DNA from: an uncultured Tateyamaria sp.
Lineage (GTDB): Bacteria; Pseudomonadota; Alphaproteobacteria; Rhodobacterales; Rhodobacteraceae
Length of the DNA: 64,000 nucleotides
Direction of reading: 5' to 3'
NCBI RefSeq assembly: GCF_947487805.1
Contig: NZ_CANKXW010000008.1
Coordinates: forward strand, 1-64,000
Shown: one piece after another, positions 4,209-33,623 of the stretch
How positions within the stretch are numbered: the stretch's first letter is position 1
Layout: each line of letters begins with the position of its first letter
Notes under the pieces: model-generated
Seen by the model: the letters and a program-made list of their open reading frames with translations, nothing else
Databases searched by the model: none
Told to the model about the DNA's origin: nothing
Program-made: the position numbers and the translations under genes

Positions 4209-4223
4209 GGGCAATGGCTTTGG

Positions 4224-5801: not shown

Positions 5802-5945
5802 TTAACATCAATTTCCAAAATCGAATTTCAATCGGTTAAGTGGCGAGCTTTCGTACAAAGCTTTCCACTAATTCTGTAGCGCGTATGTCTACAGAAGCAT
5901 TCTTCCGGCTTAATGCTGATTTAACTTTAGGTCTGTCGCAATTCT

Positions 5946-6236
5946 CTAAGTTGCAACAAGCGGTTCAATGTTCGAAACATCGATCTCCTTCGCCGCAAGC
6001 GCCATGTCGTGGTTCGTCTGCAAGTTCACCCAGTAGGCCGGGGTCGTATTGAACACACGAGCCAGGCGTAGTGCCGTGTCAGGTGTGATCCCGGTCGTGC
6101 CCTTGATCAACCGCTCGATCCGCGTCCGAGGCACACCCAGACGCCGCGCAAATGCGATGGCCCCCATCTCCAGGGGATCAAGGTAAAGCTCTTTCAGGAC
6201 TTCACCGGGGTGCATCGGGTCTTCAAGCAGGCTCAT
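5946..6236 (-). CDS. HigA-family addiction-module antitoxin-like protein
   Basis: MHPGEVLKELYLDPLEMGAIAFARRLGVPRTRIERLIKGTTGITPDTALRLARVFNTTPAYWVNLQTNHDM is a canonical HigA/VapI-like HTH. Confidence 0.88.
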   Translation of the reverse strand: MSLLEDPMHPGEVLKELYLDPLEMGAIAFARRLGVPRTRIERLIKGTTGITPDTALRLARVFNTTPAYWVNLQTNHDMALAAKEIDVSNIEPLVAT

Positions 6237-7182: not shown

Positions 7183-10100
7183 TTATGCCGCTTGCGGCAT
7201 CTCTCGAGCTAGGACTTCAGCTTGCTTCACGACCTTTTTCACCGCCTCTGACTGCAAGTCTGGTGGGAAGCCGTGCTTACGCAGGATGCGCTTGATAACA
7301 ACACGCATCTTGGTTCGCACATTTTGCTTTCGCCACCAATCGACGGACGAGGTGCTCTGCACAGCATTCACAAGTTCCTGCGCTATCACGCGCAGCTCTT
7401 CGTTGCCCATCAGCTGCACCGCACTGTCGTTCTGAGCCAGAGCATCGTAGAAAGCGACCTCTTCAGCGGAAAGCCCATCTTCAGGCTGCGACTGAAGTTC
7501 CTTGGCCATCTCGATCATTTCTTGGATCACTTGAATCGCATCGATACTTCGGTTGTGGTACCGCGCCATCGCATCTTGAAGACGTTTGGAAAACGCTTCG
7601 TTCTGGGCTTTGTTGGTTCGGGTCCGCGAACTGATTTCACCGTTCAGCAGCTTCTTCAGAGCCTCAACCGCGAGGTTCTTATGGGGACTATTTTGTAGTC
7701 CCATTAAGAAGTCCTCACTCAGCACACTGAGGTCCGGCGCGTCCACGCCCGCAGCTTCGAGAATGTCGATCACTTCGGTCGAAGCGACAGCCCGATTGAG
7801 CAACTGAGCGATTGCCAGTTCTGCCTCCTCGGCCGTCCTGGCCTTACTCGACGAAGCATCCATTTTTCGTATTGCGGCTTGAACTGCGATGAAAAAGCCA
7901 ACTTCGTCTTTGACCTCCCGAGCGTCCGACGTTCCAGAAGCAATCCTGAAAGCTTTGACCAAGCCCGCAACCGCAGTCATGAAACGCTTCTTTGAGGCTT
8001 CGCGATCCTTGGGCTCTTGACCATCAATTTTGAGTGTCAACGCATGTTCGATAGCCGTGGGAAGCAAGCGAATTCTGTCCGCGGCGCTTCCTTTGACTGC
8101 CTCCATGTACGGAATGCCATGGAACATCGATCTCATGACGTCCAACTGCGTTAGCAACGCGTGGGCGGCCTCGCCTTGGTCTACGCCTGTCTGCTTCTGG
8201 TCGGCGTTCGAATAGTGCTTAAGAGCCTTCTTAAGGTCTGCCGCAAGACCAATGTAGTCCACAACAAGCCCAGAAGGTTTGGCCCCAAACACGCGATTGA
8301 TGCGTGTGATGGCCTGCATAAGACCGTGCCCCTTCATTGGCTTGTCCACGTACAGGGTGTGCATACAAGGCGCATCGAACCCCGTTAGCCACATGTCTCG
8401 CACTATCACCAGCTTCAGACCGTCTGACGCATCACGGTATCGGGTTCCAAGAGTTTCCAGACGAGCTTTTGACCTAATATGCGGCTGGAAGTCAGCAGGG
8501 TCTTGCGCAGCTCCGGTCATGACAACCTTTACTGCACCTGCACCATCTTCGTCCGAATGCCAGTCAGGTCGCGCCTCAGCGATCCGCTTGTACACCTCTA
8601 CGCAGATACGGCGTGACATGCAGACAATCATAGCTTTGCCGCCGTCCATTGCCTCTAGGCGTGCATCAAAATGCTCCAAGATATCCGCAACAACTGCGTC
8701 AAGACGCTTCTCGGAGCCAACCAGTTTTTCGATTTGCGTCCACTTGGTCGTCATGGAGCCTTTGGCGTCTTCGTCGAAAACGCCTCCATCCGCTTCGGCG
8801 TCTTCGATGATCTCATCGAATTCTGCGTCGAGCAGATCGCCGGCTTCCTCGCTCATCTCAATCTTCGCGACCCGGCCTTCATAGTAGATGGGTACGGTTG
8901 CCCCATCGGCGACAGCCTGGGCGATATCATAGACATCGATGTAGTCACCGAAGACCGCCTGCGTGTCCGCACCAACAAGAGAAATAGGTGTCCCCGTGAA
9001 GCCGACATGAACAGCATTTGGCAACGCGGTCCGCATATGATGCGCAAAGCCGTATTTGGTCTCACCAGTCTCCCGGTTCAGTTTTGCATCAAAACCGTAC
9101 TGCGAACGGTGCGCCTCATCCGCAAAGACGATGACATTCGAGCGGTCGGTCAATAGTCCGAAATCTGTCTGCCCTTTCTCCGGTCGAAACTTTTGGATCG
9201 TGGCAAAGATCACGCCCCCTACCTTGCGATCACCTAGCTTTTTTCGAAGATCTGGAACGTCCTCTGCCTGTACGGGCATTTCACCGAACAAGGCTGAGCA
9301 TCGCGAAAACGTTGCAAACAACTGATTGTCCAGATCGTTGCGGTCCGTGATGATCACCAAAGTCGGGTTTTCTAGCCTGGGGTCTCGCATCAAGCGGCCA
9401 CCGAGAAAGGCCATCAGCAAGGACTTGCCGGAACCCTGCGTGTGCCACATCACGCCGCCACGCCCATCGTTTCCACGGGCGCGGGCGACTGCGGCAACGC
9501 CTTTGCGCACAGCATGAAACTGATGATAACCCGCGATCTTCTTGATGGGGCCTTTGCCTTCATCCTCAAAGACGGTGCAAAACCGCAGCATGTCCATAAT
9601 GACGACCGGATCGAGAAGACCTTGAATGAGCGTTTGCAAAGCTAGGGCTGAGCCATCCTCGACCAGCGTGTCTCCATCGACCGTGCGCCAACGCATGAAA
9701 CGATCATAATTTGCGGAGAGTGAACCGAACCGCGCAGTCACACCTTCTGAAATGACATTGAATGCGTTTGTCCGGAACAGATCCGGAACCTGCGTCTTGT
9801 AGGTTTCGATCTGGTTGTAGGCCCCCTTGAGACTTCCGCTCTCGGTTCCTTTCAACTCGACCACGACGAGAGGAAGGCCGTTGAGGAAAAGGATGATATC
9901 GGGACGTCGTGCTGTCTGACCAACCACCTCAAATTGATTGACCGCCAACCAATCATTCTCCCGGTTTTCCCAATCGACCAAGCGCGCGATATCTGACCGT
10001 TCCGTGCCGCCCTCGAACCACGAGACAGGGACACCGGCCACAAGCACCTCATGGATGCGTCGGTTTTCCGACATTAGATCCCCGGCAAATTCAGTGTCGC

Positions 10101-10323
10101 GCACCTTGTTGAGTGCGGCCCGGATCGCGTCATCCGGTAGGTCTGGGTTCAGCCGCCGCAGGCTTTCGTCAAGACGTCCAAGGAGCAGCACCTCGCGAAA
10201 ACTCTCCCGCGCGGGCGCTTCATTCTCAGGCGACAGCTCTGAGCCATGCAGATAGGCAAAGCCCAAGCCCTGCAACTCTTCCAGCGCCCATTGTTCGAGA
10301 TCGTCTTCGGAAGCGAAAGCCAT
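7183..10323 (-). CDS. hsdR: Type I restriction endonuclease subunit R
   Basis: 1046-aa ORF with [19 protein letters not shown] (nuclease), [15 protein letters not shown] (Walker A) and [12 protein letters not shown] (DEAH box). Confidence 0.97.
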
Positions 10324-11465
10324 CAGTCCACCTCCTCACCAAGCGACAGGTCAGGAATATCCAGACCATTCAGGCGTTCACCCAATACGTGTTCCAGTTT
10401 TTGGATATGCGAAGCCAACCAGCTCGCCATATCTGCCCAGGCGTCGCGGTTATATCCGTCAAACTCTTCCGAATAGACGATCAGGCTCTGCTTCTTGTCG
10501 TCCATCCGACGCCAGATCAATTCCGCCCCGAACTCAGCCTCAATCTGTTGTTTCTGTTCATACAACTGATCGAACAACCACTTGTTCTCCGCAGCATTCG
10601 CCCGCTCGAAACTCAACTGAACCCGCGCTTCCTTGCGCAGGAACACCAACTGAAATGGGCAAGACCGAACGCCAGAACCTGCACTCAACCAATGGCTTCT
10701 CGTTGGGCTGATGCTTCCGAAAAGCCCTGCACCATCTGCGCGCAGCTGATCCAGCGCCACCTCCCAGAAGTCGAGCCGCAACTTGTGACGCTTCTTCTGG
10801 GTGTCCTGAACCGCCTTCTCCTCGTTTTCCTTGCTCGACATCCCGATCATGAAATCCGCCGCTTCCGGCGTCGGGATGATCTGCTGGATGTCCACCATTA
10901 GCTCCTCGCCAAAGGAAAACGGCGTCACCTTGAAGCATTGCGCGCGAATGCCCCGGCTCAGAAGCCACAGCACCGTCGCCGTCACCTCACGCCGGAAATT
11001 GGCAGCGATAAAGATCATCCGCTGATCGTTGCCTGGGTTAAGGACGGTCTCCTCCAATTCCTCAACTTCCATGAACTCGCAAATCCGCACCGCCGCATTG
11101 CCGCCGCCCTCGTAGCGGTCGAGGTATTGCTGGTAGATGTCCACGATCTGCGTCTTGGTCAGGCCCGAGACATAGGCCGTGTATTTCAGCGCCTGCCAGG
11201 TCACATCCCGCCCGCTGTCATCGAGCTTGTTCTCGATCACAACCAGATTGCCGTCCTTGTCGAGCGCCAGAAGGTCCAGCCGCTCGCGCGTCTCGTCAAA
11301 CCCGTCGAACTCCTTCTGGATGATCAACAGCTCTTCCCCGAGCGCGTCGGGCTGGTTGGCCAACCATTCCTGCAAATGATCCCGCTCGCGCAGGTTCAGA
11401 TCAGCAAAGCGTTTCTGGACTAAGCGGGACAATCGGTTTTGGTTCAAATCAACGCGGAACATCAA
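10323..11465 (-). CDS. DUF4268/NucS-like domain protein in the R-M operon
   Basis: [40 protein letters not shown] is a nuclease-like core; the C-terminus resembles DUF4268. Confidence 0.75.
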
Positions 11466-12205
11466 TCACCTCTGAAATCGGAAAAATCTAAGATCGCGAC
11501 GCCAGCTAGGTCGCGCTGAAGAACATACTGCGACATGAAATCACGCTCGCGGATACGCTCGAAAACCTCACGTCTGTCCTGTGGCATTGAACGTTCCGCT
11601 CCACCAACATCAATGCCCAAGCCCGATTTGGCATCACATTTGCCAGAACTTGTGACCAGGCGATGCCACGGCTTCATATGCTTCTTGAGCTTGCTCAGAG
11701 CATTGGTTTTTTCCGCCTTAACTTTCTTGGCGCAGGCGACCGAGCAGCCCCAATAGCTTCGCCCGCGATAGGGATATTCGCCGCCGCCATGCAGTAGCTT
11801 GGAGTTTGAACCGTGGTCGTGGTTGAAGAAGACATATAGCGGGATGCAAGTCCCAGCATTCGCAATCAATTTGGCGGATTGGCCCGATGCCGGATCAAGG
11901 CCGCCATAGTCCGATCCTTTGCTGGAATGGTAGAGCCGCTTTGCCTGAACACGCAAACCCAGATCGCACCAAGGCGTGCGAACGATCCATTCCCAATCCG
12001 CGCCGTTGATGCCTTCCTCTGTCTTATTGAACATGGTCACGGTCAGTCCATGCTTGGCGTGATCGCGTGCCATGCGCAGCAAGAGCATTTCGGTGAGCGT
12101 CTCTTCCTGAAGGGCCAACCCACGTTTGAAAGCATGACCTTGCTCGTTCCAAACCCAAGCGGCTCGCCTGCGGAGATAGTCACGGAGAGTGATCGATGCA
12201 GCCAT
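11462..12205 (-). CDS. DUF6615-like protein, candidate PD-(D/E)XK enzyme
   Basis: LTEMLLLRMARDH...KTEEGINGADWEWIV...LGLRVQAKRLYH. The start ATG at 12205 overlaps the upstream stop (ATGA). Confidence 0.65.
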   Translation of the reverse strand: MAASITLRDYLRRRAAWVWNEQGHAFKRGLALQEETLTEMLLLRMARDHAKHGLTVTMFNKTEEGINGADWEWIVRTPWCDLGLRVQAKRLYHSSKGSDYGGLDPASGQSAKLIANAGTCIPLYVFFNHDHGSNSKLLHGGGEYPYRGRSYWGCSVACAKKVKAEKTNALSKLKKHMKPWHRLVTSSGKCDAKSGLGIDVGGAERSMPQDRREVFERIRERDFMSQYVLQRDLAGVAILDFSDFRGD

Positions 12206-12666
12206 CACCAAACCTCGAACCGATCCATGGATCGCTTGCTCGCCGCCTCTGTCACAACCTGCCGCACGACCGCGCAGATGTCGTCGTCGCTGCGGGCGGG
12301 CATGTGGTCCTGGTCTTCGCAAACGCCGCAGCTGATCAGGACGGCTTCGGAATGGGGGAGTTCAGAGACCGTTCCGGCGACCATGCTGTCGAGGGTTTCT
12401 TCGAAACCATCGGAGAGCATGCCAGTGTCGCTATCGTATTTCTCTTGGTACCAGCACCACTCGTCCCAAACGGTTTTGAGCGGCTCTGCCGTGTCTTCAA
12501 ACATGCCTACGGCGGGCATCCGTTGCAGGCGGATGATGACGCGTTTGGCGAGCGCCTCGATGCGCTCGGCGGCAAAGACTTGGATGGGGTGGAAATAGTC
12601 CACCTCCGGGCCCGCCTCGGCCATCAGGAACGGGGCGGAGACGTCATAGGGTTTCGGTGCACTCAT
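12205..12666 (-). CDS. Hypothetical protein in the R-M operon
   Basis: 153-aa ORF overlapping both neighbours by 1-4 bp, same strand. Confidence 0.7.
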   Translation of the reverse strand: MSAPKPYDVSAPFLMAEAGPEVDYFHPIQVFAAERIEALAKRVIIRLQRMPAVGMFEDTAEPLKTVWDEWCWYQEKYDSDTGMLSDGFEETLDSMVAGTVSELPHSEAVLISCGVCEDQDHMPARSDDDICAVVRQVVTEAASKRSMDRFEVW

Positions 12667-13901
12667 AACATCGCCTCCACTTCCGCCTCAGCGGCTTTGA
12701 CGCGCAGGGTGCCGGACATGAGGCGGGGCAGCAGGGTGTCGCGGAGGGTGGCGAGGGTTTGGTTTTCCTTCGTTAGCTCAAGAACCTTTCGAAACATCGG
12801 ATCGACGATGCTTTCGAACGCAGCAGATACAGAACGAGGCGGCGAAACGACCGTGGCAGCTTGGAGTGTCTTGGTTGTTATGGTGTCAAAAACAGAACCA
12901 TGCGCTGCAAGCGTTATGCCCAATATTTCCGTCATGAACATGCAATTTGCGAAGAATGGTTTGCCCTCTCTGGAATTCAACGCATAGCAAGTTTGGTTCA
13001 TCGCGATCTGCTCTCCAAACATGCACGCACGGCCAGTGGTTGCGCCACGCGCGACAACAACTGTGGCGTACTTTGGGATCAGTTTCGTACTGCTCTTGGA
13101 CAGCCCCAGCTCGGTAATTCTGCGCTCTGTGGAAATCAAAAACGCTTGGCCGCATTGGCTTACATCTTTGGCGCTAGCCCATGGAATATAGCCGTCCCAA
13201 TAGTCCTCGATCGAAGTTTTTGGCGTCCCACCGGAGATAAGCTCTACGACCTCCAAAAGAGCTTTTTCTCCCCACCCCTCCGGCAGGCCGTTTTCGCCGA
13301 AGCGGTCGGGGAAGAGAGCGGCGGTTTCGGGGGCCATGTGGGCGGGGGGACGGTTTTGGGATTTGGCGTGGACGGGGTCGAACGTGACGAACCACGACCG
13401 ATAGAGCGCCCGCGCCATCTCTTCCAGGCAGGCCGAGGCCTTCCGGTTCGCCTCGATCTTGTCATCCAGCGCCCCCAATATCCCCGCAATCTCGCGTTGT
13501 TCTGGAAGTGGTGGCAAGACCACTGCTTCTTGGTGAGCATCGTTTCGGTTAACGCCAGGAACACCGCTCTTGTCGTTGAATTTTTCCCAATCCAAGGTCT
13601 GCAGAAAGTAGTAGCAAAACTTCGGATCATTCCCTTTGAAATCGCGGACGTACAGCGCAGTGTTCAAAGGCCAAAAGTCACTTTCAGAGAAGAAAACTTG
13701 GCCGATCGTTCCATAGCGACCTGTTATTACACCCGGCCCATTGACCTTTGCCTCTGAGTGAAGATCAGTTGGTCCAGACGAAGAAATTATTGGGACATCG
13801 CCGGGCTTGCGCTTGGCATGCGGCAAGTCATAACCACGTTTCAGCTCCAGCACGTCGCCCAGTTCAACGTCGGCCCAGCTCACACCAAGCCCCCCAACCA
13901 C
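12663..13901 (-). CDS. hsdS: Type I restriction specificity subunit S
   Basis: Two target-recognition-like halves separated by LPPLPEQREIAGILGALDDKIEANRKASACLEEMARALYRSWF. Confidence 0.95.
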   Translation of the reverse strand: MVGGLGVSWADVELGDVLELKRGYDLPHAKRKPGDVPIISSSGPTDLHSEAKVNGPGVITGRYGTIGQVFFSESDFWPLNTALYVRDFKGNDPKFCYYFLQTLDWEKFNDKSGVPGVNRNDAHQEAVVLPPLPEQREIAGILGALDDKIEANRKASACLEEMARALYRSWFVTFDPVHAKSQNRPPAHMAPETAALFPDRFGENGLPEGWGEKALLEVVELISGGTPKTSIEDYWDGYIPWASAKDVSQCGQAFLISTERRITELGLSKSSTKLIPKYATVVVARGATTGRACMFGEQIAMNQTCYALNSREGKPFFANCMFMTEILGITLAAHGSVFDTITTKTLQAATVVSPPRSVSAAFESIVDPMFRKVLELTKENQTLATLRDTLLPRLMSGTLRVKAAEAEVEAML

Positions 13902-15406
13902 GCCTCGATCTCGGTCTCCAGCCGTCGGCCTTCCTCGAAATGCCCCTGCAACTCGGCCCGCAGCCGCGTAAATTTTTCCTCAAACGGCTCGTCGTCCTCT
14001 TCCACCGCGCCCGCGCCCACGTAGCGGCCCGGGGTCAGCACGTAGTTGTGCTTGGCAATCTCCTCGACCTTCACGCTTGCGCAGAAGCCCGGCTCGTCTG
14101 CGTAAGGCCCCTCTGCCTCCTCCCCCCGCCAGGCATGGTAGGTGGTGGCGATCTTGGCGATCTCGTCCTCTGACAGTTCCTTTTGCTTGCGCGACCCTGC
14201 GATCAGCGCGCCCATCTTGCGGGCGTCGATGAACAGCACCTCGCCGCGCCGGTCGCGAAGCGTGCCGCCCGCCGCCGTGCCGTTGGATTTGTCCTTTGCC
14301 AGAAACCACAGGCAGGCGGGGATCTGTGTGCCAAAGAACAACTGTCCCGGCAGCGCCACCATGCAATCCACCGCGTCCTGTTCGACCATCGCCTTTCGAA
14401 TGTCGCCCTCGCCCGATTGCATGGACGACATCGACCCGTTAGCCATGACCACCCCTCCAATGCCGTTGGCGCTGAGGTGGTGGTGGATATGGGACATCCA
14501 AGCAAAGTTCGCATTGCCCGTCGGCGGCGTGCCATAGCGCCAGCGCGTGTCCTCGCGTAGCGCCTCGCCGTTCCAGTCCGAGATGTTGAAAGGCGGGTTG
14601 GCGAGGATAAAGTCAAACCGTTCATCCGGGAAGGCGTTGCGGGTCAGCGTGCCCTCCTGGTTCCAGCGCAGATCGCCAAAGATGCCCCGGATGGCAAGGT
14701 TCATGCGGGCGAGGCGAAAGGTCGTGTGGTTGCGTTCTTGCCCATAGACCGCGATGTCATCGACCCGGCCTTGGTGGGCGGCGATGAATTTCTCGGACTG
14801 GACGAAGAAGCCTCCGGTGCCGCAGCAGGGGTCATAGACGCGGCCATGGGTCGGCTCCATCATCTCAACCATGACCGAGACGATAGATTTAGGCGTATAG
14901 AACTCCCCGCCGCGCTTGCCCTCGGACGAGGCGAATTCCCCAATGAAGTATTCGTAGATGCGCCCGATCAGGTCGAAGTCGGATTTGGTACCGTGCAGTT
15001 CGAGGTTGGTGAACATCTCGATCAGGCCGGTGACGATGGCCCGGTCGAGGTTGGCGCGGCCAAAGACCTTTGGCAGCGCGTCTTGCAGCGAGGGGTTCGA
15101 TTTCTCAATCTCGCGCATGGCGTCGTCCACCTGCACGCCTATGTCGTTTGCTTTGGCATTGGCGGCGAGCCGATCCCAGCGGGCTTTTTCGGGCACCCAG
15201 AAGATGTTTTCGGCCTCGTATTCTTCGGGGTCTTCGAGGTCGATGTATTCATCCTTGGCGAATTCGGCCCGCTTGGCTTCGAACGCGGCAGAGACATAAC
15301 GGAGGAAGAGAAGGCCCAGGGCAACGTGTTTGTATTCGCCCGCGTCCATCGCCCCGCGCATCTTGTCAGCGGCGGCGAAGAGGGTCTTTTCAATGCGTTC
15401 TGCCAT
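13880..15406 (-). CDS. hsdM: Type I DNA methyltransferase subunit M
   Basis: VYDPCCGTGGFF and DFILANPPFN (N-6 adenine methylase motifs I and IV). Confidence 0.97.
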   Translation of the reverse strand: MAERIEKTLFAAADKMRGAMDAGEYKHVALGLLFLRYVSAAFEAKRAEFAKDEYIDLEDPEEYEAENIFWVPEKARWDRLAANAKANDIGVQVDDAMREIEKSNPSLQDALPKVFGRANLDRAIVTGLIEMFTNLELHGTKSDFDLIGRIYEYFIGEFASSEGKRGGEFYTPKSIVSVMVEMMEPTHGRVYDPCCGTGGFFVQSEKFIAAHQGRVDDIAVYGQERNHTTFRLARMNLAIRGIFGDLRWNQEGTLTRNAFPDERFDFILANPPFNISDWNGEALREDTRWRYGTPPTGNANFAWMSHIHHHLSANGIGGVVMANGSMSSMQSGEGDIRKAMVEQDAVDCMVALPGQLFFGTQIPACLWFLAKDKSNGTAAGGTLRDRRGEVLFIDARKMGALIAGSRKQKELSEDEIAKIATTYHAWRGEEAEGPYADEPGFCASVKVEEIAKHNYVLTPGRYVGAGAVEEDDEPFEEKFTRLRAELQGHFEEGRRLETEIEAWLGGLV

Positions 15407-17873: not shown

Positions 17874-17904
17874 GCAGAAAATGCGTACATATCAGCTTGT
17901 TAAG

Positions 17905-17950
17905 TGGTGCCCGGGGGCGGAATCGAACCACCGACACGAGGATTTTCAAT
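17905..17950. repeat. att site: 46-bp duplication of the tRNA-Phe 3' half
   Basis: Identical to 33549-33594. Confidence 0.93.
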
Positions 17951-18081
17951 TAGCCTCGTGATCTGCACACGCTGTTGCAAGATCGCTCAACCCGTAACGT
18001 AGCCGCTTGAAAACCTTGTTCTTTGTGAATGGCAGATCGTCTCGCCCTGTCTCAAACCAAAGCATTCAAGCACGCTACTCC

Positions 18082-18100: not shown

Positions 18101-18312
18101 GGGGTGCTTGAGGAGAACACGCCACTTCCGTTTGCGTGTCAGTTCCCGGCAATTGGGCGAAGACAGCATACTTGAATGCCGCTACTATCCAAACTCCGTC
18201 GTAGGTGCGAAGCCTATTCAAACCTCACCAAAATCTCTCTAGGGTTGCATCACGCGGCTATAGACCAAACCCAATGTAGCTGTCGTTTGATCCAATTCTC
18301 AAGGAACGGCAA

Positions 18313-20436
18313 TTGTACGATTTATCAAACTGGCGACAGCTGTCTGCGGACTATGGTTTTGTGCTTCCTGATGTAGAATGTCCAATCTCGGTGCCGCAGA
18401 TTCCGGGATTGCTGGTTGAATTGAACAACCTACAAGCTGCTGCTCAGGCCACATCGTTTGACGAACTCCATCGAGTCAGTGCCACAGTTGCGGAAGAGAT
18501 CATTCAAGCTCAGGCGAACGCGACCGGCGACGTCGAACGCGTTCTACTTGAATATGTTCAGTTCGAAGTGTCGATTGCGCCAATGATGGCTGCGATTAAG
18601 CGAGGTCGCTTCGATAGTGCATTTGACTGGATACACAACGGCCTAAGTGACAGCATAGAATCTAGTGCTCAACGAAAGTTTTTTGACGGACGACCATTTC
18701 GTTTCATCGGAGTTTTAGTTGACATGCTGCCAAACAGCTTTCCGAACACGTTTTTGGAATGGGCGGACGGTTTTTTCTATTATTGCCGCAATCAGTCCGC
18801 GCTATTTGCCCCGGCAGCTCAGATTGCTCCGCTCTTAGAAGAGACGATTTTCAGGTTGCCAGCCGATGGAAGCCTAGCAGTTAAAGCTGCTGTGAGCCTG
18901 ATGTGCTGGGGTAGAGATGTGGGGCATCAAAGCGCGGTTGGCGTCGCGACCGTTCTGAGACGCTTGTACGATAACGATGCACTACCCAGAGAAAACAAAG
19001 CTCAGATCGCCAAAGCATTTTCAACACGGAGCTGCGACTTGGTCGGAGATCCACACCACAGGTGGGCCAAGATCGTAATACGTGATTACGCCGACTTTTT
19101 GCTTCAGCACGAACCCTTTCAGTACCACTTCGCTTCATTCGAAAACGTGGGGGATTGGGATGAAAACGTAGTGTGGTTGATTGAAGCCGCCAAAGAATAC
19201 TCAGATGGAGTTCGCAATAGTTTCCCATCCTACACAGACTGGTTGATTTCTCTCGATCAACGATCCAGCTTATTGAGTCCGGTGGCAAAATTCGCGTTGG
19301 ACAATGATCGGTCGGCAGACTTCGCAAAAATTCTGGCCGCTTGGTATGACGGTGAAATTGAAACGGCTTCTGCTGGGTGCAGTGTCGTTTTGCCCACTGC
19401 TATTTCCGGTGTTGGGTTTCTCGGGAACGACACTGAAATGGTCAGTTTTCGGGGGAAATTTTCCGGCGAAACCGAAGTAGTGGAAGCGATGAATGAAACT
19501 ACCAACAATGCATTGGGAACAACGAGAACTGTACAAGCCGGTCCTGAGCTTGATGCAGCACCGGAGCGTCCCGGGCAGCCAAACAGAGATTGTGCAAGCG
19601 CATTCGAGGGAGCATTGTTCGACTTTTACAATGTTCCAGTTTTAGCCGAGAAACTGGCTGGATCGCCCGCTTTTACATGTTTTCCCCACAACCTTCACCC
19701 GCTTCAGGCGCTGCTGTCGCGGGAGACGAATGAATGCCGGCCTTTGAGTTCGAGTCTACGGACACCGCTTCCAGATCGCCCAATTCGGCGGGCAGCCATA
19801 TGGGCTTCATGTGATGATTGGTATTCTGAAATGGAGGCGGCCTCGGCGTCGGATTTTCTTCAACGGCACGGTGTCGAAGCACATGTCTATCTTGGGCGGG
19901 AGAGTGGTCGAGATGACTTTTTGGCAATGTACCGCGATCCTGCCTATGACTTCATTCATATAATTGGGCATGGAGCTTTCGATCACTGGCAACTCGGTTC
20001 GTCAAAAATCCTCGTAAATCAGGGTGAGGTTCTTGCTGTAGACGACCTAGTTGACCTCCACCCAGAAAAGGAAAGGAGGCGCCTTCTTTGTTTGAACATT
20101 TGTGATGGCGGCGTTTCAGATGGCTTGGGTGGGATACAAAAATTGGGGCTCGCACCTTCATTGGCCTCACCAGCGCAAGCGGCTGTTTCTCATCTTTGGC
20201 CCGTTGAACCCCGAGTGGCTTCAGCCTTTGGTTTGACAATTTGCTCCGAGTTGGTGGCGGCCCAAAATGACCATTTTGGTGCTTTTGCTGAAACTCTAAA
20301 AAGAGTTCGAGAACCTTGGGTGCAACGTGTTACGGCGCTGCGAGAACAGTTCGACGGCGAAATCATGGATCGCCTAGAAATCTTCAATGCACCAGATGAC
20401 ATTTTCGATTGGGCTTCACCCGTGTTCTTTCAGTAG
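18313..20436 (+). CDS. CHAT-domain (caspase-like) protein with long helical N-terminus
   Basis: C-terminus FIHIIGHGAFDHWQLGSSKILVNQGEVLAVDDLVDL...RRRLLCLNICDGGVSD, with the His (GHG) and Cys (NIC) of a CHAT dyad. TTG start with AAGGAA upstream. Confidence 0.78.
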   Translation: MYDLSNWRQLSADYGFVLPDVECPISVPQIPGLLVELNNLQAAAQATSFDELHRVSATVAEEIIQAQANATGDVERVLLEYVQFEVSIAPMMAAIKRGRFDSAFDWIHNGLSDSIESSAQRKFFDGRPFRFIGVLVDMLPNSFPNTFLEWADGFFYYCRNQSALFAPAAQIAPLLEETIFRLPADGSLAVKAAVSLMCWGRDVGHQSAVGVATVLRRLYDNDALPRENKAQIAKAFSTRSCDLVGDPHHRWAKIVIRDYADFLLQHEPFQYHFASFENVGDWDENVVWLIEAAKEYSDGVRNSFPSYTDWLISLDQRSSLLSPVAKFALDNDRSADFAKILAAWYDGEIETASAGCSVVLPTAISGVGFLGNDTEMVSFRGKFSGETEVVEAMNETTNNALGTTRTVQAGPELDAAPERPGQPNRDCASAFEGALFDFYNVPVLAEKLAGSPAFTCFPHNLHPLQALLSRETNECRPLSSSLRTPLPDRPIRRAAIWASCDDWYSEMEAASASDFLQRHGVEAHVYLGRESGRDDFLAMYRDPAYDFIHIIGHGAFDHWQLGSSKILVNQGEVLAVDDLVDLHPEKERRRLLCLNICDGGVSDGLGGIQKLGLAPSLASPAQAAVSHLWPVEPRVASAFGLTICSELVAAQNDHFGAFAETLKRVREPWVQRVTALREQFDGEIMDRLEIFNAPDDIFDWASPVFFQ

Positions 20437-20474
20437 CCACAAACAGTTGTCATCAGCCCCCTTTCCCCTTCGGC

Positions 20475-21482
20475 TCAGCAGTAGTCATCCATACAGTTTT
20501 CGTAACTATCTCCGGTCAGCTCGCAAAAGGTCTTTAGCGCGCCCTGCAAAGAGAAATACTGGTGTTCACTCCGATGGTAGAAAAACTCGCCACGAACCGA
20601 AATCTGAGCGACGGCCCAGTCTTTGATTGCGTTGGGGGCTGGGTTGTGTGTCAAGACGATCAAGGCATCTTCGGCAAGTGACCGTTGAACAACCAAGCTC
20701 TGATAGATGTCATTCCGTGCGAACACTTTTCCGAAGACGAGGTTTTCTGCATAGCGAGCCAACGCATCAACGGTCACTTCCGATGGGCATTCGGGAAACT
20801 CCGTGGGTATCCTCCAGCGAACTTGAACGACCGAAGGCGTGAGTGACTCGTACTCTTCTGGGTCCGGCTCGAAGTCAGCACGTTCAGCAGTTCCGTACAG
20901 CCATTCACCAATTGCACCACCGCTCGGAACCGCTCCGCTTCGCGCCCACGTTTCGAAGCGTGATTTTGCTTTGGCGGCCTCGTCCTTCGACACGGTTCGC
21001 ATCCAAGATACATCTGGATAGGAAGCGTCGCTTTGGACCTTCGACGGATCAGCAAGGAAAGCTTCGATTGAACCGTAGACCAGTTCTATTCGACGCACAG
21101 TGATCTCGTTCAATAGGGCGTTTTCCAATCGCGTTAGCCACCGCAGGTTTTCCGGTCGGTTGTTCGCACGGTTCGTGTCAATGTGATCTACGACATGCTG
21201 ATCGGTGGGTGGTTTACCGTGAAACGCGGAGCAAACAATGCGGTGCACAGGGACGCCCGCCAAATATTGGTATCCGGTTGTCAGGCTTTGGCGTCCGAAT
21301 GTCCAAGTTTTGTCGAGAGGACGGGCGCGCTTTCGATATTCATTGAAGCGAAAAACCGCCCCGTTGTCGCGAACGAGATACCGCTCACCCCGATATTCAA
21401 CTTCGATTTCGTTTTCGTAAACTTCAAGCAGGTGATCTTGATCGCCTAATGGCAATTTTGTTTGGTCCAAAGATGGCATCAC
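20475..21482 (-). CDS. HNH endonuclease
   Basis: VHRIVCSAFHGKPPTDQHVVDHIDTNRANNRPENLRWLTRLENALLN. Confidence 0.88.
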   Translation of the reverse strand: MMPSLDQTKLPLGDQDHLLEVYENEIEVEYRGERYLVRDNGAVFRFNEYRKRARPLDKTWTFGRQSLTTGYQYLAGVPVHRIVCSAFHGKPPTDQHVVDHIDTNRANNRPENLRWLTRLENALLNEITVRRIELVYGSIEAFLADPSKVQSDASYPDVSWMRTVSKDEAAKAKSRFETWARSGAVPSGGAIGEWLYGTAERADFEPDPEEYESLTPSVVQVRWRIPTEFPECPSEVTVDALARYAENLVFGKVFARNDIYQSLVVQRSLAEDALIVLTHNPAPNAIKDWAVAQISVRGEFFYHRSEHQYFSLQGALKTFCELTGDSYENCMDDYC

Positions 21483-21754
21483 ACTCTCCAGTGCAAAATT
21501 GCCTCGGCCTTCCCCAGACTACTCGATCTGGTGCCGGTTGTTGTTGGCAGACATGAAACACGGCGTCAGGCGCTGCCTTATGCTCCGAAACGCAACCGAA
21601 GAATGTCGTGCATATTGTCACGAAGTCAAACAACGATTGAATTCGTTCAAAAGCACCAAGCTCACCATACAGCCAGTGCAGAGCGAACCAAAACCCTGCA
21701 AGCCTTCTAGAGTTGTCCCTGACGCAGCACGGCCGCCCATCTTATCATGGGCTT

Positions 21755-22948
21755 ATGAAACGCAAACTAACCACCAAGTTCATCGAAGGGCAAAAGCCTG
21801 ATCAGTCAAAGCGCCTCGATTTTCGGGACGAGCTGATGCCGGGTCTTGTCCTGCGCATCAGCACGTCCGGCACCAAGACGTTCTGCCTGCACAAGCGCAT
21901 CAACGGCAAAATGCGCCGCCTGACCATCGGACGGTTCGGCGTCGTGTCGCTGGCCGAGGCGCGTGAACGAGTGCGACAGGTTCTTTACGAAATCGAGACT
22001 GGGCGCTTTGAGGAACGCACCGGCATTGAGGTCGAAACCAAACCAACGCTGGGTGACGTGATCCCCGACTACATCGAAAAGCACGCCAAGGTTCACAACC
22101 GCGACTGGAAACGCAAGGCAGCCCTGCTGGCAAAGTTCACCACCCTGCACGGCAAAAGGATCGACGAGATCAAGCGCGCCGATGTCGTGAAAGCCTGCGA
22201 CGTGATCCACAAATCCGCGCCGGTCAGCGCGAACCGCGCGCTGGCCCACCTCAAGCACCTGATGGGCTGGTGTGTAGAGCGCGGTATGATCGATGCCTCC
22301 CCCATCGCCGGGATGAAACCGCTGTCCAAGGAACGGTCGCGCGAGCGCGTGCTGACAGAAGATGAGCTGGGCGCGCTATGGGCAGCCTGTGGCGCCGAAG
22401 GCTATCCTTTCGGGGATTGCATGAAGCTGTTGATCCTCAGCGGCCAGAGGCGCGCCGAGGTCGCTGAAATGCGCTGGTCGGAACTCGACGTCGAAAAACG
22501 CCTGTGGACCCTGCCCTCGCAGCGCGCGAAGAACGGCAGGCAGCACACGGTGCCGATCACCGACGCGATGATGGACGTGCTGCGCAGGGTGCCGAGGTTC
22601 ATTGGGTCGGACTACGTGTTCACGACCACCGGCAAATCGCCCGTGTCGGGCTTCGGTCGCCTGAAAGACCGGCTCGACAAGGCGCTGCCCGAAGGCACGG
22701 AACCGTGGATCATTCACGACCTGCGCCGCACGATGTCCACCAACATGGCGATGCTGGGCGTCCCCCAGCCCGTCACCGAAGCCCTATTGAACCACAAGAC
22801 GGGTGTGGTCTCGGGCGTGGCCGCTATCTACAATGTCTATTCATACGCGGACGAGAAGCGCGAGGCATTGGGCAAGTGGAATGAGCGTATCGAAAAAATC
22901 ACAGCGACCAAGAATGATCAGCAAGCTGAAAGGCGACATCACGCCTGA
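21755..22948 (+). CDS. DUF4102-type tyrosine integrase (complete)
   Basis: GLVLRISTSGTKTFCLHKRINGKMRRLTIGRFGVVSLAEARERV; catalytic LSGQRRAEVAEMRW, WIIHDLRRTMSTNMAMLGV, IYNVYSY. Confidence 0.95.
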   Translation: MKRKLTTKFIEGQKPDQSKRLDFRDELMPGLVLRISTSGTKTFCLHKRINGKMRRLTIGRFGVVSLAEARERVRQVLYEIETGRFEERTGIEVETKPTLGDVIPDYIEKHAKVHNRDWKRKAALLAKFTTLHGKRIDEIKRADVVKACDVIHKSAPVSANRALAHLKHLMGWCVERGMIDASPIAGMKPLSKERSRERVLTEDELGALWAACGAEGYPFGDCMKLLILSGQRRAEVAEMRWSELDVEKRLWTLPSQRAKNGRQHTVPITDAMMDVLRRVPRFIGSDYVFTTTGKSPVSGFGRLKDRLDKALPEGTEPWIIHDLRRTMSTNMAMLGVPQPVTEALLNHKTGVVSGVAAIYNVYSYADEKREALGKWNERIEKITATKNDQQAERRHHA

Positions 22949-23648: not shown

Positions 23649-23761
23649 ACAAAACGGCTTCAAATGGACCTATCCCGTTCATAGTGCCGAAATGACACGC
23701 CCTGAAATCCATGCGACTGCTTTGTCAGGAACCGGTTCCCTTTAGTCAGAAAGGGAAAATC

Positions 23762-23986
23762 ATGACAGACGACAAAGCAAGTAAGATGCTGGCAACGCGC
23801 GACGACTTGAAGCGCATGGGCATCAAAGTCTCCAACGTTACGCTGCTTCGCTGGGAGGCACGCGGACGGTTCCCGCGCAGAATCCGTATGGCGGGCACCA
23901 CTGTCGCGTGGTTCCTGTCTGAGATCGAGGACTGGCTGAAAGAGCGTGCCAAGGAACGCGCTCGCACGCACTACGCCGACTACTAA
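23762..23986 (+). CDS. AlpA-family regulator
   Basis: LATRDDLKRMGIKVSNVTLLRWEARGRFPRRIRMAGTTVAWFLSEIEDWLKER. Confidence 0.9.
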   Translation: MTDDKASKMLATRDDLKRMGIKVSNVTLLRWEARGRFPRRIRMAGTTVAWFLSEIEDWLKERAKERARTHYADY

Positions 23987-24009: not shown

Positions 24010-25782
24010 ATGCGAAAGGCATTTCGTTTCGAGGGTGATATGCTGTCATCTTCGATAATCAAGGCCGCGCTCGCTTGGGCGCGGAACGGCGGCAAAATCG
24101 TCGCTTTGCATGGCATTGGCGATGACGGCCAATGCACATGCGGCAAGCCTGATTGCAAGAGTCCGGGCAAGCATCCTATCGCGGAATTGTTTCCGAAGGG
24201 GCAGCATAGTGCCACGAGTAGCGCGGTTAAAATCCGTCGCGCGTTCAAGAAGCACCCCAATGCCAACTTCGGCGTGATCCTGCCGCCGGGGTTGGTGGTG
24301 CTCGATGTTGACGGCCCGGAGGGGGCCGAAACCTTCAAGAGGCTGAACCTCCCACCGACTCTGTCGGTTCGAACGGGTCGCGGAACACACTACTACTTCC
24401 GCGCCTCGGAGGCTCTACCCAAGAGGAAAGCGCGGCTAGCTGGCATAGACATCAAGGACAACGCCAGTGGATATCTCGTTGGCCCGCCCAGCATGCACAA
24501 ATGCGGTAGCCGGTATCGCGTACAGCGCGGAGAGGACCGCTTGGCGGCGTTGCCTGCCGACTTCGTGCGAGCGCTTGCGCGCGACAAAAGCCGCACAGAG
24601 AACTTCGACACGGTTGGTGCCTTCAAAGCTGGAAGCCGTAACATTGAACTGACCAAAATTGCCGGATCACTCAGATTTCGCGGGCTGACCGAAACGGCAA
24701 TCGAAGGCGCTTTGCAGGCGATCAACGCTGCGGCGTGTAGTCCACCCCTCGACGACAATGAGGTCGAGCGTATTGCCTCCAGTGTCGGCAAATACGAAGC
24801 CGGGCATGAAGAGGCTTTTGGCTGGCTCGGAGACGTCGAGGAATCCACGCCGCAATTCTCGATGTATCCTTATGTCGTGAAAGGTGCCTTGACTGTCCTC
24901 GACGGGAACATGGGGCAAGGGAAATCCACCTTCACCTGCGCCATCGCGGCCGCCGTGACGACAGGGAAGCCCCCGCCGTTCGTGGATGACATCGAAAAAG
25001 GCTCAGTCCTTTTCATGTCTGCGGAGGACGATCCGTCGCGGGTGCTGAAACCCCGCCTCATGCAGGCCGGGGCCGATGTCTCGAAAGTCCGCTTCCAACA
25101 GGAGCCGTTTTCCTTGGACGAGCGCGGCTTGGCGTTGCTCCGGCAAGAACTGTCGGCGAACACACCCGCCCTTGTCGTGATCGATCCGATAATCGCTTTC
25201 ATGAAGGAAGGTGCGGACGGGAACAAGGCGACGGAGACCATGCACTTCATGGTGCAGATCGACCAACTGGCGCGCGAGTTCGACACGGCCATCCTGATCG
25301 TGCGGCACCTTCGGAAGGCGCGGGCTGACCATGCCATGCACCAAGGTATCGGGTCGATTTCGATATCGGCTCGAGTGCGGTCGGGCCTGATCCTCGCGCC
25401 GCATCCCGACGACCCGCGCTTGCGCGCGGTAGCCCATGCCAAGTCGAACTATGCCGAACCCGGGCCGACAATCGTGTTCGAGATGCAGAGCACTGGCCCG
25501 CGCTCGCATCCCCGCGTGAAATGGCATGCCTGTGAGCCTGAGTTGACGGTGGGCGAACTACTCGCGCCTTCCGAGGCCGAACGGGGTCGACCACCACGGG
25601 AACGTGACACAGCGACCGCGTGGCTGAAAAGCGTGCTGCGCAAAGGCCCAGTCAAGAAGAAGGTGCTAGACGGCTGGGCCAAGGAGGAAGGGGTTTCACT
25701 CCCGACGCTCCGGCGCGCAGGCGAAGCACTCGGCGTGGTGAAGTCCAAGGACGGGAAAGCTTCTGTTTGGGCGCTGCCCTGA
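24010..25782 (+). CDS. Bifunctional primase-polymerase / RepA-like AAA helicase
   Basis: Prim-pol-like N-terminus (VLDVDGPEGAETFKRL...SVRTGRGTHYYF) plus VLDGNMGQGKSTFTCAIAAAV and GSVLFMSAEDDPSRVLKPRL. Confidence 0.88.
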   Translation: MRKAFRFEGDMLSSSIIKAALAWARNGGKIVALHGIGDDGQCTCGKPDCKSPGKHPIAELFPKGQHSATSSAVKIRRAFKKHPNANFGVILPPGLVVLDVDGPEGAETFKRLNLPPTLSVRTGRGTHYYFRASEALPKRKARLAGIDIKDNASGYLVGPPSMHKCGSRYRVQRGEDRLAALPADFVRALARDKSRTENFDTVGAFKAGSRNIELTKIAGSLRFRGLTETAIEGALQAINAAACSPPLDDNEVERIASSVGKYEAGHEEAFGWLGDVEESTPQFSMYPYVVKGALTVLDGNMGQGKSTFTCAIAAAVTTGKPPPFVDDIEKGSVLFMSAEDDPSRVLKPRLMQAGADVSKVRFQQEPFSLDERGLALLRQELSANTPALVVIDPIIAFMKEGADGNKATETMHFMVQIDQLAREFDTAILIVRHLRKARADHAMHQGIGSISISARVRSGLILAPHPDDPRLRAVAHAKSNYAEPGPTIVFEMQSTGPRSHPRVKWHACEPELTVGELLAPSEAERGRPPRERDTATAWLKSVLRKGPVKKKVLDGWAKEEGVSLPTLRRAGEALGVVKSKDGKASVWALP

Positions 25783-28246: not shown

Positions 28247-31200
28247 ATGCCCGCGAGCCCCGAGGCAACAGGTGGCGTCGGCTACACCTTTGAAGATTCA
28301 GTAGTGGCGTCCTATTTGACCGGCCTCCTTGTTGAAGGTGGTGCGCGGGGTATCTCTGAAGCGACTACTGACGGCGTCTTTCTCCAGCGCGCGGCGCTTG
28401 GTGAGCCACTAGACGATATTATCGTGGAAGCGTCGGATCGATACGGCCAACCTTCCAAATTAGCTCTGCAAGTGAAGCAAAGCCCAACGCTGAGTTCTGC
28501 TGAAACTAATACCGACTTTCGAGACGTCATTTCGGCTAGCTGGCGAGAATTCCAGAAAGACGGCTTCAGAATAGGTCGGGACCGTGTTGGCTTAGCTGCT
28601 GCAAATATCGCGCAGTCCACACTCCGGGCAGCCCGCTCTACGCTTGAATGGGCTCGTATATCCAAGTCGGCAGACGACTTTTTTCGGCGGCTCGAAACTG
28701 AGAATTTCGCAAGCGACGCACAAAGAAGGTTTGTGAGCGATGTCCAATCTCTGCTCCCTGCAGGGGCGCAAGATGAGGAAAATTCGTGGCAATTTCTAAG
28801 GCATTTTGTCATCCTCGTCTTTGATACGCTTTCAGAAGGAGCGTCAGGTTCATTCGAGGCAATTGAACGTCTGCGGAATGCGCTACCAACTGGAGAGCGT
28901 CATCGTGCCGAAGAGCTTTGGGTACGATTTTCCCAGATATCACGACAAGCGTCGGGCGCAGCAGGTAGCTTTTCCAGGGCAACATTGGTTGAGCAGCTCA
29001 AGGGAGCGTTTGATCTTTCGTCTCTTCCAAGCATGCGCAGCGATCTGGTGAAAGTAGCAGAAGAAACAAGATACGCTCTTCAAGGTATCCGAATGGACAT
29101 CTCTGGGCTGGTTATTCCACGAAATAGTATTCTGGACACGATTAACGGCATTGTGGATGGCAAGAGATTTATCCAATTGGCGGGCGAGGCCGGTTCGGGA
29201 AAGTCGGCGGTGTTACGTGCGATGGCCGAAGAGCACACCCGGCACGGTTTCGCTCTTGTTCTGACCGATAAGCGTCTCGTCGGCCCCGGCTGGCCCTCAC
29301 TGGCCACGCACCTGCGCCTAGAAACGGAACGGCTCGCTGACCTCCTTTTTGAGCTAGCCACACTGGGAAAGCCGACTCTCTTCATCGACGGGATAGATCG
29401 CTTGGGTAATGAGGCCCGTCAGACAGTTTCAGACATCGTGACTACTCTTCTTGATGATCCAAGGCTTGCGGACTGGCGCGTTGTGGCATCTACCCGGTCG
29501 TCACACCTCGAAGACTTGAGGATATGGCTCCCTCATCAACTCATTGAGGACGACCAAGCACATATCGTCGAGATCGATGGATTTGATGACAATGAGGCTG
29601 GCATCCTTGCTGAGCGGTTTCCAGCGATGCACGAAGTCCTGTTCGCCGAGGGTCAAGAGAAGGAATTTGCAAGGCGCCCTTTCTTTGCTCAGGTTTTGGC
29701 ACAGCGTTCAGTGAGCACTGATGGAGCGGCGAGCAAGTTTTCCGAGATTTCGCTAGCGCAGATTTGGCTAGAAGGACCGCACGGTCTACATGAAAAGGCC
29801 GCTTCGATTGAGCGCCGCCACGCGATGGGTGAGCTGGCCGCGAGATGCGCTCAAGCAACCAATAGAAGCGCCGCAGTAGAAGGCATTTCCGCTCAAGCTC
29901 TGACGGCACTAGTACAAGAACGAGCGATAGCGGAGGTTGCGGGTAGCGGACGATATTCCTTTACCCACGACATATTTCTTGAATGGGCGATGTTCGGTTT
30001 GTGCCGCCAAAATGGTCCAGATTGGCCGAGCACCCTCACCGCCGCTGGAGACAGGCCCGGAATGATCCGGGTAGTGGAGCTACTGTCACAGTTTGAATTC
30101 GAGACCGGAGACAACTGGTCAGAAACTCAATTGGCACTGGAACAGCAGGAAGCGTGGCGTCATTGGAGCAGGGTTTGGCTCCTTGCCCCATTTGCCTCGC
30201 CAGCGTTCTTTGATCGCAAAGATGCGATTTCGGCTTTTTTGAGCGAATACCACCGTCTCATCCGGCTCCTTTCTTCTTTCCGAGCACACAAGACTATCGA
30301 AAACCTTCTAGTCGTCCATGGCGCGTTCGAACTCGGCGAGAAAACTAAATTCGAAAAATTCAGAATAGCTGATTTTTTGTCATGGCCCCGTCCCGTTCGG
30401 AACTGGAGGCGGCTTCTAATCTGGCTACTTTCTCTAGATTGGAATGAGGAAACAATCGAGGACATAGTCGACACGTTCGATGTCTGGCTTAACCTGTTCC
30501 AAGATTATCCCGACAGGATCAAAGATCGTTTTGCTCAAAGAATCGATCAAATTCTGACTGAGTGGGATGCTTATGACTATTGGGACCGGACCAAAAAGAC
30601 CAGACCGTTGGGGTTTCATAAGGACGGTTTAGGCGGCAAACTTCGACAGGCTTTCCTAAGGTCCTCGCTCACCAACACGGACCTACTAAGTCGGAGGCTT
30701 CAAGCGTGGACGAGCGAACGGATTGACGACAAGGTCCAATCCAGCGTCTTTGAATGGAGCGTGCGTCTTGCCAGTGTTGTCCCTGAAGCCCTAGCTGACT
30801 TTTCCTTCCAGGCGTTCATCGACCCACTACCATCAGAGTCAGCCGAGAGGTCGCGGGGGCAGATGATCGGTTGGTCGCCCCATATGAATGATTGGGATTC
30901 TCCGGGCATTAGCAACTATTCGCGCCACTGCCATCCAGCTTCTCCTATTCAACAACCATTCGCAGCCCTTTTCGAGCACGCACCTCAGGAAGGTCTTCGT
31001 TTAGTTCGCAGGCTGCTTAGCCGGACCGTTGTCGCGTGGAGAGAGCTACCCCAATACGACTATCGCAACCGCGAAATTCCAATCCCATTCAGCGTGGATT
31101 TCCCCTGGGGAACTCAAACGTTCTGGGGCGACCAAAGGATTCATGGTTGGTATCGAGGTCTGTTTTCTTGCGACATCCTCGGGTCGGCACTTATGGCGCT

Positions 31201-33475
31201 GGAAAACTGGGCGTTCTCCGAGCTTGAAGCCGGACGGGACGTTGATGAGATCGTACGGGAGCTTGTTACAGGACACGAAAGCGTGGCCACGCTGGGCATC
31301 GCCTTGGGAGTCTTGTTGGACAAGGACGCGCTGTCGCCTGCGGCAGCCGCTCTCGTAGGCTGCCAGCACATCTGGGCCATGGACGAGTACCGCTGGCAAC
31401 ACGATGTCCAAGGCCTTCACTCAAATGAAATCGGAGCGAGCTTCGGCTTGTCTATCGATACAACTCATCTTGAAGCACTGAAACGCCTCAACTCGCGGCC
31501 TTCCCGGAAAAAGAACATCAGGTGGCTCGCGACAGCATTTATTCTCACAGCTAACGACCAACGCGAAAAGGTAGCGGAAAAGCTTACCAGCTTTCCAACT
31601 GAGCTACCCTTCACCCACGAAGGCCAAGAAGATGATGATAAGCTAGTCGCATATCTTCTGCATCGAGCCGAGGAGTGGGCCGCGATGGCAGACCTTTCGA
31701 ACTATGCTCAGGTGGAGACCGATGATGGGAAAGTCGGCGTCGCATTTCAGCCGTCAGACGAACGAGTGCAACAAGCTGAAGAAGCAGGTGAGCGGCTAGC
31801 CCATTGGAACAAAGGCTTCCAACTGCTTAAACAATGTGAGGCTTGGTTTGAGAGCGGTAAAATTGGTGATGAGACGCGAGATGAAATTGTAGCGCTCGCA
31901 CGCCAGGTCGACAACGAGGACCTGTTCAAATCTGGTTTTGATGCCGGAGACCCCGGCAGCCGCCGCGCTGGCGGAGTAGCAGCCGTGTCAGCAGCGATCC
32001 TGAGTTTGAAGCCCGATCTTCCACATGATCAAGTGGAATGGGCCGAAAGCGTTGCATTTCGCGCCGCCAGTACTGTTCCGGCAAACGATGAGTTTTTTCA
32101 CGCTGATGCTCCTGCCGACGACAGACCCGAAACATTTGCATCAAAGGGATTGGCGGCGATAGTTGCGGGTCGCGGACCATTAGCAAGTTCGGCACAGGAA
32201 GAACTGGTTCGGTTGTGCTTTCATCCCTACAAGGGCGTGCAGTTAGCTGCCTTGTCAAACGCCGCGTCATGTTGGCGAGAGCATAAGGACTTCGCGGACA
32301 AGTGCACGGCACTTGCTTTCAAGCTGACGACTCTTGAATTGGATCGTGGTTCGCCTGATTGGTACCGGCGACGCGATGAGAGAGACAGCCATCTGGCCGC
32401 CGAAAAACAACGGCTGTTTGAGGCGACTATACAAGGTATAGCCTCCGGCGACTGGAACGGGCTGTCTGAGACGTATGCCGAAATCGGGCCGGAACACTTA
32501 GATCAATGGCGCGTCAAAGACTTCGCATCGATGTTGTCGATCATCCCGAAAGACAGGTTCAACGAAGATCATGCTTTTCGTGACGACCTATTAGCTCTTC
32601 TGCATAGCTTCGTTGAAAAGCTCACTGCGGCAATTGGCGCAGCTGACGAAGCCGAGCACCGTTCAGGCTCAAGCCTAAGTTTGGAGTTTTCCAGTTGCAT
32701 TTGGGACTTGGCAGCGCTGTGCGAGAAATTGCCAATTGAAAATATTCGTAGTGCAATCATACCCATACTGTCTCAGTTGCCCCATAAGCCGAAGAGCGAA
32801 GTTCTCTCGACTTTCGCAAATGCGTACTCCTGCATGCGACTTCTGGATTCACCGACAGTTCCAGCGGGCATTGTTAATGTTTTTCTCGACATCTTTGAGG
32901 CAGTCGCTGATGACCCGGATTGGAAGCGTCCCGAGTGGCGGGAGGACTATGGACTTCCCGAGCAGCTTCACAAATTGGTTCGTATCGCAATGGGGGCAAA
33001 TTGGGATCGGCCAGCAATGGGTGCGGCCCGCTTCGCTAACAATGATTGGTCCGATGCAAAGCTACTGGACCCATTGATTGATTTGATGCTCCAAAGATTT
33101 GGCCATCTACCGCAGGTCATGCAAGCATTCTTGCTCCATGTTGAAAGGTCATTCGATCACCGCAGCAGCGAATTCCTCGCTTCGAGGTTGGGAGGCATCG
33201 CGCCCGCAGTTTGGCAGTCTAGAGGGTTTTGGTCCGGGGGAAGAACTGCGCAACTCGCCGGTCTAATTCAATCCTTTGCCGAACGCGACGCCCCATTGCA
33301 GCCTGATGTCCACGTTCAGTTCTTGGAGATTCTCGATCACTTGATTGAACTTGGGGATCGTCGCGCAGCAGCGCTTCAAATTAGCTCGCTCTTTGATCTT
33401 CCGCGCAGGCAAACACCGCAGAGTGTTTCTTCGATAGGCCCCGCAAGCGGCCTGCCGAGATTGATACCCGAATGA
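28247..33475 (+). CDS. Large nuclease-STAND NTPase-helical repeat protein (Avs-like defence protein candidate)
   Basis: 1742 aa. N-terminal GGVGYTFEDSVVASYLTGLL...LDDIIVEA...LALQVKQS (PD-(D/E)XK/Cap4-like), Walker A LAGEAGSGKSAV, Walker B PTLFIDGIDRL, and a roughly 1200-aa helical C-terminus. Confidence 0.75.
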   Translation: MPASPEATGGVGYTFEDSVVASYLTGLLVEGGARGISEATTDGVFLQRAALGEPLDDIIVEASDRYGQPSKLALQVKQSPTLSSAETNTDFRDVISASWREFQKDGFRIGRDRVGLAAANIAQSTLRAARSTLEWARISKSADDFFRRLETENFASDAQRRFVSDVQSLLPAGAQDEENSWQFLRHFVILVFDTLSEGASGSFEAIERLRNALPTGERHRAEELWVRFSQISRQASGAAGSFSRATLVEQLKGAFDLSSLPSMRSDLVKVAEETRYALQGIRMDISGLVIPRNSILDTINGIVDGKRFIQLAGEAGSGKSAVLRAMAEEHTRHGFALVLTDKRLVGPGWPSLATHLRLETERLADLLFELATLGKPTLFIDGIDRLGNEARQTVSDIVTTLLDDPRLADWRVVASTRSSHLEDLRIWLPHQLIEDDQAHIVEIDGFDDNEAGILAERFPAMHEVLFAEGQEKEFARRPFFAQVLAQRSVSTDGAASKFSEISLAQIWLEGPHGLHEKAASIERRHAMGELAARCAQATNRSAAVEGISAQALTALVQERAIAEVAGSGRYSFTHDIFLEWAMFGLCRQNGPDWPSTLTAAGDRPGMIRVVELLSQFEFETGDNWSETQLALEQQEAWRHWSRVWLLAPFASPAFFDRKDAISAFLSEYHRLIRLLSSFRAHKTIENLLVVHGAFELGEKTKFEKFRIADFLSWPRPVRNWRRLLIWLLSLDWNEETIEDIVDTFDVWLNLFQDYPDRIKDRFAQRIDQILTEWDAYDYWDRTKKTRPLGFHKDGLGGKLRQAFLRSSLTNTDLLSRRLQAWTSERIDDKVQSSVFEWSVRLASVVPEALADFSFQAFIDPLPSESAERSRGQMIGWSPHMNDWDSPGISNYSRHCHPASPIQQPFAALFEHAPQEGLRLVRRLLSRTVVAWRELPQYDYRNREIPIPFSVDFPWGTQTFWGDQRIHGWYRGLFSCDILGSALMALENWAFSELEAGRDVDEIVRELVTGHESVATLGIALGVLLDKDALSPAAAALVGCQHIWAMDEYRWQHDVQGLHSNEIGASFGLSIDTTHLEALKRLNSRPSRKKNIRWLATAFILTANDQREKVAEKLTSFPTELPFTHEGQEDDDKLVAYLLHRAEEWAAMADLSNYAQVETDDGKVGVAFQPSDERVQQAEEAGERLAHWNKGFQLLKQCEAWFESGKIGDETRDEIVALARQVDNEDLFKSGFDAGDPGSRRAGGVAAVSAAILSLKPDLPHDQVEWAESVAFRAASTVPANDEFFHADAPADDRPETFASKGLAAIVAGRGPLASSAQEELVRLCFHPYKGVQLAALSNAASCWREHKDFADKCTALAFKLTTLELDRGSPDWYRRRDERDSHLAAEKQRLFEATIQGIASGDWNGLSETYAEIGPEHLDQWRVKDFASMLSIIPKDRFNEDHAFRDDLLALLHSFVEKLTAAIGAADEAEHRSGSSLSLEFSSCIWDLAALCEKLPIENIRSAIIPILSQLPHKPKSEVLSTFANAYSCMRLLDSPTVPAGIVNVFLDIFEAVADDPDWKRPEWREDYGLPEQLHKLVRIAMGANWDRPAMGAARFANNDWSDAKLLDPLIDLMLQRFGHLPQVMQAFLLHVERSFDHRSSEFLASRLGGIAPAVWQSRGFWSGGRTAQLAGLIQSFAERDAPLQPDVHVQFLEILDHLIELGDRRAAALQISSLFDLPRRQTPQSVSSIGPASGLPRLIPE

Positions 33476-33480: not shown

Positions 33481-33548
33481 AAGACTATTTGGGTCAGGTG
33501 CTCATCCGCAGTAATGTCATGCAAGTATTTGATTTCGCTTTGTTTTAA

Positions 33549-33623
33549 TGGTGCCCGGGGGCGGAATCGAACCACCGACACGAGGATTTTCAATCCACTG
33601 CTCTACCCCTGAGCTACCCGGGC
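33549..33623 (-). tRNA. tRNA-Phe(GAA)
   Basis: Reverse complement GCCCGGGTAGCTCAGGGGTAGAGCAGTGGATTGAAAATCCTCGTGTCGGTGGTTCGATTCCGCCCCCGGGCACCA: full cloverleaf, anticodon GAA, encoded CCA. Confidence 0.98.

Follow-up and report, generated by a model that had tools for sequence, protein, structure and literature searches.

The defense system Borvo was reportedly described by Millman et al. in 2022. Published reports list Borvo among the CHAT protease systems (PMC10952713), name its subunit BovA (PMC12322248), and treat it as a single-gene system that occurs in 0.78% of 22,803 complete genomes (PMC10975372). Furthermore, two reports indicate that phage DNA polymerase mutations escape Borvo and that abortive infection is suspected (PMC10975372, PMC11348598).

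The window analyzed here (the whole stretch of 64,000 nucleotides) encodes a protein of this type. The gene, referred to below as bovA (18313-20436, forward strand), is an open frame of 707 amino acids (aa) with a TTG start, preceded 7 bases upstream by AAGGA, and its product consists of a helical N-terminal region and a C-terminal CHAT domain. Residues 505-703 match the Pfam CHAT family above the curated cutoff (E 9.6e-11), and the presumed catalytic residues are His553 within GHG and Cys597 within NIC, in agreement with the original prediction of a CHAT-like domain carrying GHG and NIC dyad residues. Compared with the PADLOC BovA model, the protein scored 449.9 bits (E 6.2e-135), with residues 36-707 aligned to positions 38-711 of the 711-position model. 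This was its sole PADLOC match, and every other CHAT protein in 399 genomes of the phylum scored 28 bits or less against the same model. Judged by this profile match, the 707-aa CHAT protein is a full-length member of the BovA family, the single protein of Borvo. This membership upholds the likely defense role that had been proposed. Two other claims had to be given up: the locus is not a new defense locus, as its CHAT protein belongs to the published Borvo system, and the N terminus is not simply uncharacterized, as the BovA model covers the protein from residue 36. We consider it approximately 85% probable that bovA, exchangeable cargo located near att in an ~15.6-kb tRNA-Phe island, acts as a one-gene Borvo system in which the neighboring HNH endonuclease gene is not involved; this estimate includes the sensor-protease proposal set out below.

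The window protein resembles Borvo in being a single ~700-aa protein with a C-terminal CHAT domain, a His/Cys pair, and a near whole-length match to the family model. It also shares with TPR-CHAT Csx29 of type III-E CRISPR (Craspase) an architecture in which a CHAT cysteine protease lies behind a helical region. However, its family match is to BovA and not to Csx29, and family scans of the island genes detected no Cas7-11/gRAMP, Csx30, or CRISPR genes. Likewise, the idea of a caspase-like protease is common to the gasdermin-activating bacterial proteases, which include CHAT types. Unlike in a gasdermin-CHAT pair, the neighbors of bovA are the HNH gene and an integrase gene, and the open reading frame (ORF) list contains no small gasdermin-like gene adjacent to it. 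In the same list, no ORF of at least 80 aa lies wholly inside the 360 bases upstream of bovA.

The closest relatives of the window BovA were found in Martelella (L002, 77% identity), a MAG (L003, 74%), and a partial locus (L004, 84%). More distant relatives are encoded on two plasmids (L032 and L033), in a P2-like prophage (L039), and in a genome of the same family (L050). Scanning of the relatives other than L004 with the BovA model gave 462 bits for L002, 444 for L003, 501 for L032, 739 for L039, 287 for P0001/L033, and 672 for L050. His553 and Cys597 are invariant in a seven-sequence alignment, the GHG and NIC motifs are also present in the L050 protein, and sequence conservation within the family reaches upstream of the CHAT domain. 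Hence, the expectation that homologues would keep the His/Cys pair holds even for the distant members, which are 22-27% identical to the window BovA over the aligned parts. On these comparisons, the window BovA is part of an alphaproteobacterial clade (L002 to L004, 74-84% identical), which differs from the other BovA proteins found in sharing only ~25% identity with them. Because of this divergence and the lower model score (450 bits versus 739 for L039 and 672 for L050), the trigger or substrate of the clade may differ. The same ~25% identity to other BovA groups would fit a protein that is BovA-like but functionally distinct, that is, a CHAT protease or non-defense regulator with a trigger other than phage replication. 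However, the model match spans the helical region, the dyad is intact, and the mobile-element setting is rich in defense genes, which makes such a separate function unlikely. These proteins add to the BovA family a divergent group of full-length members in which the His/Cys pair is invariant, and they help in choosing mutants and conserved surfaces in Borvo.

A bovA-type gene was present in 1 of 101 genomes among relatives, a rarity that could be taken as a sign of a degenerate or inactive CHAT gene. However, decay of the gene is extremely improbable given the full-length open frame, the intact dyad, and full-length relatives with 74-77% identity in two other organisms. Scans of viral collections for BovA returned only L039, while a search of phage records found no BovA and a DNA search of Escherichia coli genomes with the L039 gene as the query produced no match.

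The surroundings of the relatives provided several further observations. In the slot of the P2-like prophage (L039, 733-8498), genes for a SIR2-TPR protein, BovA, and a PDC-S06-type ATPase stand in a row. On the IncP plasmid pRSB223 (L032, 7411-9539), BovA is divided between two frames that overlap and are annotated as two genes; for comparison, one report mentions a two-gene "Borvo-like" system in S. thermophilus (PMC12322248). Downstream of bovA in the MAG (L003, 10737-13059) is a ubiquitin-like operon of the E1/JAB type that has E1-E2 matches in PADLOC. In the partial locus (L004, 3029-8722), BovA is located beside what looks by sequence reading like a Tn7-like transposition set (TnsA/B/C, TniQ-like).

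Structure prediction yielded models of low confidence, with pLDDT values of 49-50 in two AlphaFold runs on the CHAT protein. In caspase-like proteases, the catalytic His and Cys directly follow strands. In the model (pLDDT ~50), His553 is located just after strand E547-552 and Cys597 just after strand E591-596, and this strand order, with the two residues at strand ends, would agree at low confidence with a caspase-like fold. A Foldseek search of the model against the PDB gave no match at E <= 0.001 (caspase-11 appeared at E 0.44), and searches of solved structures by sequence and by profile found no credible relative. The N-terminal part is helical in the same low-pLDDT model and has no TPR family match in Pfam.

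Most likely, BovA is a sensor-protease that responds to phage replication by aborting the infection, with its trigger and substrate inferred from the literature. The helical N-terminal part would sense a component of phage replication, for which the published escape mutations point to the phage DNA polymerase. Sensing would unleash the caspase-like CHAT protease of BovA, which would in turn cleave a cellular protein and bring about a growth stop or cell death before phage release. The HNH gene would have no part in BovA action.

A tRNA-Phe(gaa) gene (33549-33623, reverse strand) and the right att copy, which starts at 33541, together occupy 33541-33623, and the core-genome sequence to the right of the tRNA is shared by 20/20 same-genus genomes. 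A stretch of 56 bases of the tRNA-Phe 3' part recurs as a left att copy at 17897-17952 and as a third copy at 1170-1225. The copies at 1170, 17897, and 33541 are 89-93% identical in register and share an exact 26-base core, for which 0 occurrences are expected by chance. From these three copies it follows that two islands are inserted in tandem at tRNA-Phe. The left att copy forms the boundary between them, the third copy is the outer end of island 1, and bovA and the HNH gene reside in the second island (~17.9-33.6 kb). The backbone of the latter comprises, on the forward strand, a tyrosine integrase (Arm-DNA-bind_3, 21713-22948) and an AlpA-like regulator (23711-23986), both identified by family scan, and a Prim-Pol primase with a helicase-like ATPase domain (24010-25782). 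As predicted, bovA and the HNH gene are both located between the att copy and the integrase. A gene for a 1742-aa NACHT/STAND ATPase (28247-33475, forward strand) adjoins tRNA-Phe. Its PADLOC matches to PDC-M54A and Avs4 are weak, and it is probably a second, Avs-like defense cargo. The inverted repeats of the region are short and imperfect and were taken as chance. Island 1 contains a type I restriction-modification operon (7183-15406; R, S, and M subunits), inside which lie genes of the PDC-S11 type (10323-11465) and for a DUF6615 protein (11462-12322). A truncated-looking integrase gene (75-1022, reverse strand) adjoins the third att copy (window positions 1-1225), which hints that another element lies past the start of the contig.

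A sister island (L053), with att copies at both ends, is present at the tRNA-Phe of G1191, which belongs to another genus of the family. Its integrase (90% identity), the product of ORF 22803 (92.5%), AlpA (94.5%), and primase (89%) are highly similar to those of the window. DNA similarity between the two islands extends from att to 18101 and resumes at 21688, so that positions 18102-21687 form a variable slot, flanked by conserved sequence on both sides, that holds other genes in L053. The equivalent interval of L053 (13584-16263) holds two small genes and the gene for a 565-aa protein that carries a P-loop-like motif; none of the three matched a Pfam family. As the slot content is swapped while integrase, AlpA, and primase stay, the bovA/HNH pair is interchangeable cargo, and the cargo position assumed for the two genes is confirmed. 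The base composition of bovA (GC 50.5%, GC3 48%; integrase GC3 78%; core GC 64%) fits recent acquisition as cargo. The tRNA-Phe islands thus present Borvo as swappable cargo in a slot of defined position. At the tRNA end of L053, the NACHT gene is replaced by genes for a Shedu-like protein, a thymidylate synthase, a member of the amino acid:DNA transferase/thymine pyrophosphorylase family, and an HTH-peptidase. Together, the slot swap and the Shedu-like gene at the other end support the reading of the slot content as defense cargo. The first three of these proteins are encoded side by side (1653-6070), and the thymidylate synthase and transferase/pyrophosphorylase genes are possibly DNA-base hypermodification genes beside a defense nuclease.

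The HNH gene (20475-21482, reverse strand) is an open frame of 335 aa and is convergent with bovA, as originally predicted. Residues 78-122 match Pfam HNH_3 (E 2.5e-18), and the HNH core (residues ~76-122) is shared with the phage HNH_3 homing-type endonucleases (PHROG 59, E 9.8e-20; PADLOC HEase). The window protein differs from the latter in a conserved C-terminal extension (213-335), which is common to its full-length bacterial relatives (~40-43% identity), four of them from other genomes of the class and one from a Chryseobacterium plasmid. Scans of viral collections with the window HNH protein found nothing. The two genes are adjacent and convergent and occupy one cargo slot, as might be expected of a two-gene defense module whose HNH nuclease is activated by the protease or holds it in check. 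However, an HNH relative was absent from 7/7 BovA loci (by tblastn at all seven and by motif scan at all but L050; L004 stops at the bovA gene, so that only its downstream side is visible for the neighbor check), and a BovA relative was absent near 5/5 full-length HNH loci (~8-10 kb on most sides). In addition, the convergent orientation speaks against an operon, and one report presents Borvo as acting through a single gene (PMC10975372). We therefore regard such a module as highly improbable, and CHAT and HNH are not retained as a conserved pair, which disposes of a false "new CHAT plus HNH system." Very unlikely, too, is a version in which the trigger or substrate is peculiar to the alphaproteobacterial BovA clade and HNH provides a second layer through phage DNA degradation or slot protection. 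As in Borvo, the window gene has no fixed partner, and no partner gene is shared by the seven BovA loci. The suggestion that HNH may be an independent gene agrees with this lack of co-occurrence; from the sequence comparisons, it is most likely a mobile-element passenger unrelated to bovA. Indeed, one HNH relative (L021) directly adjoins an integrase gene at a locus without CHAT, and the C-terminal extension is also found alone in Agrobacterium plasmid proteins.
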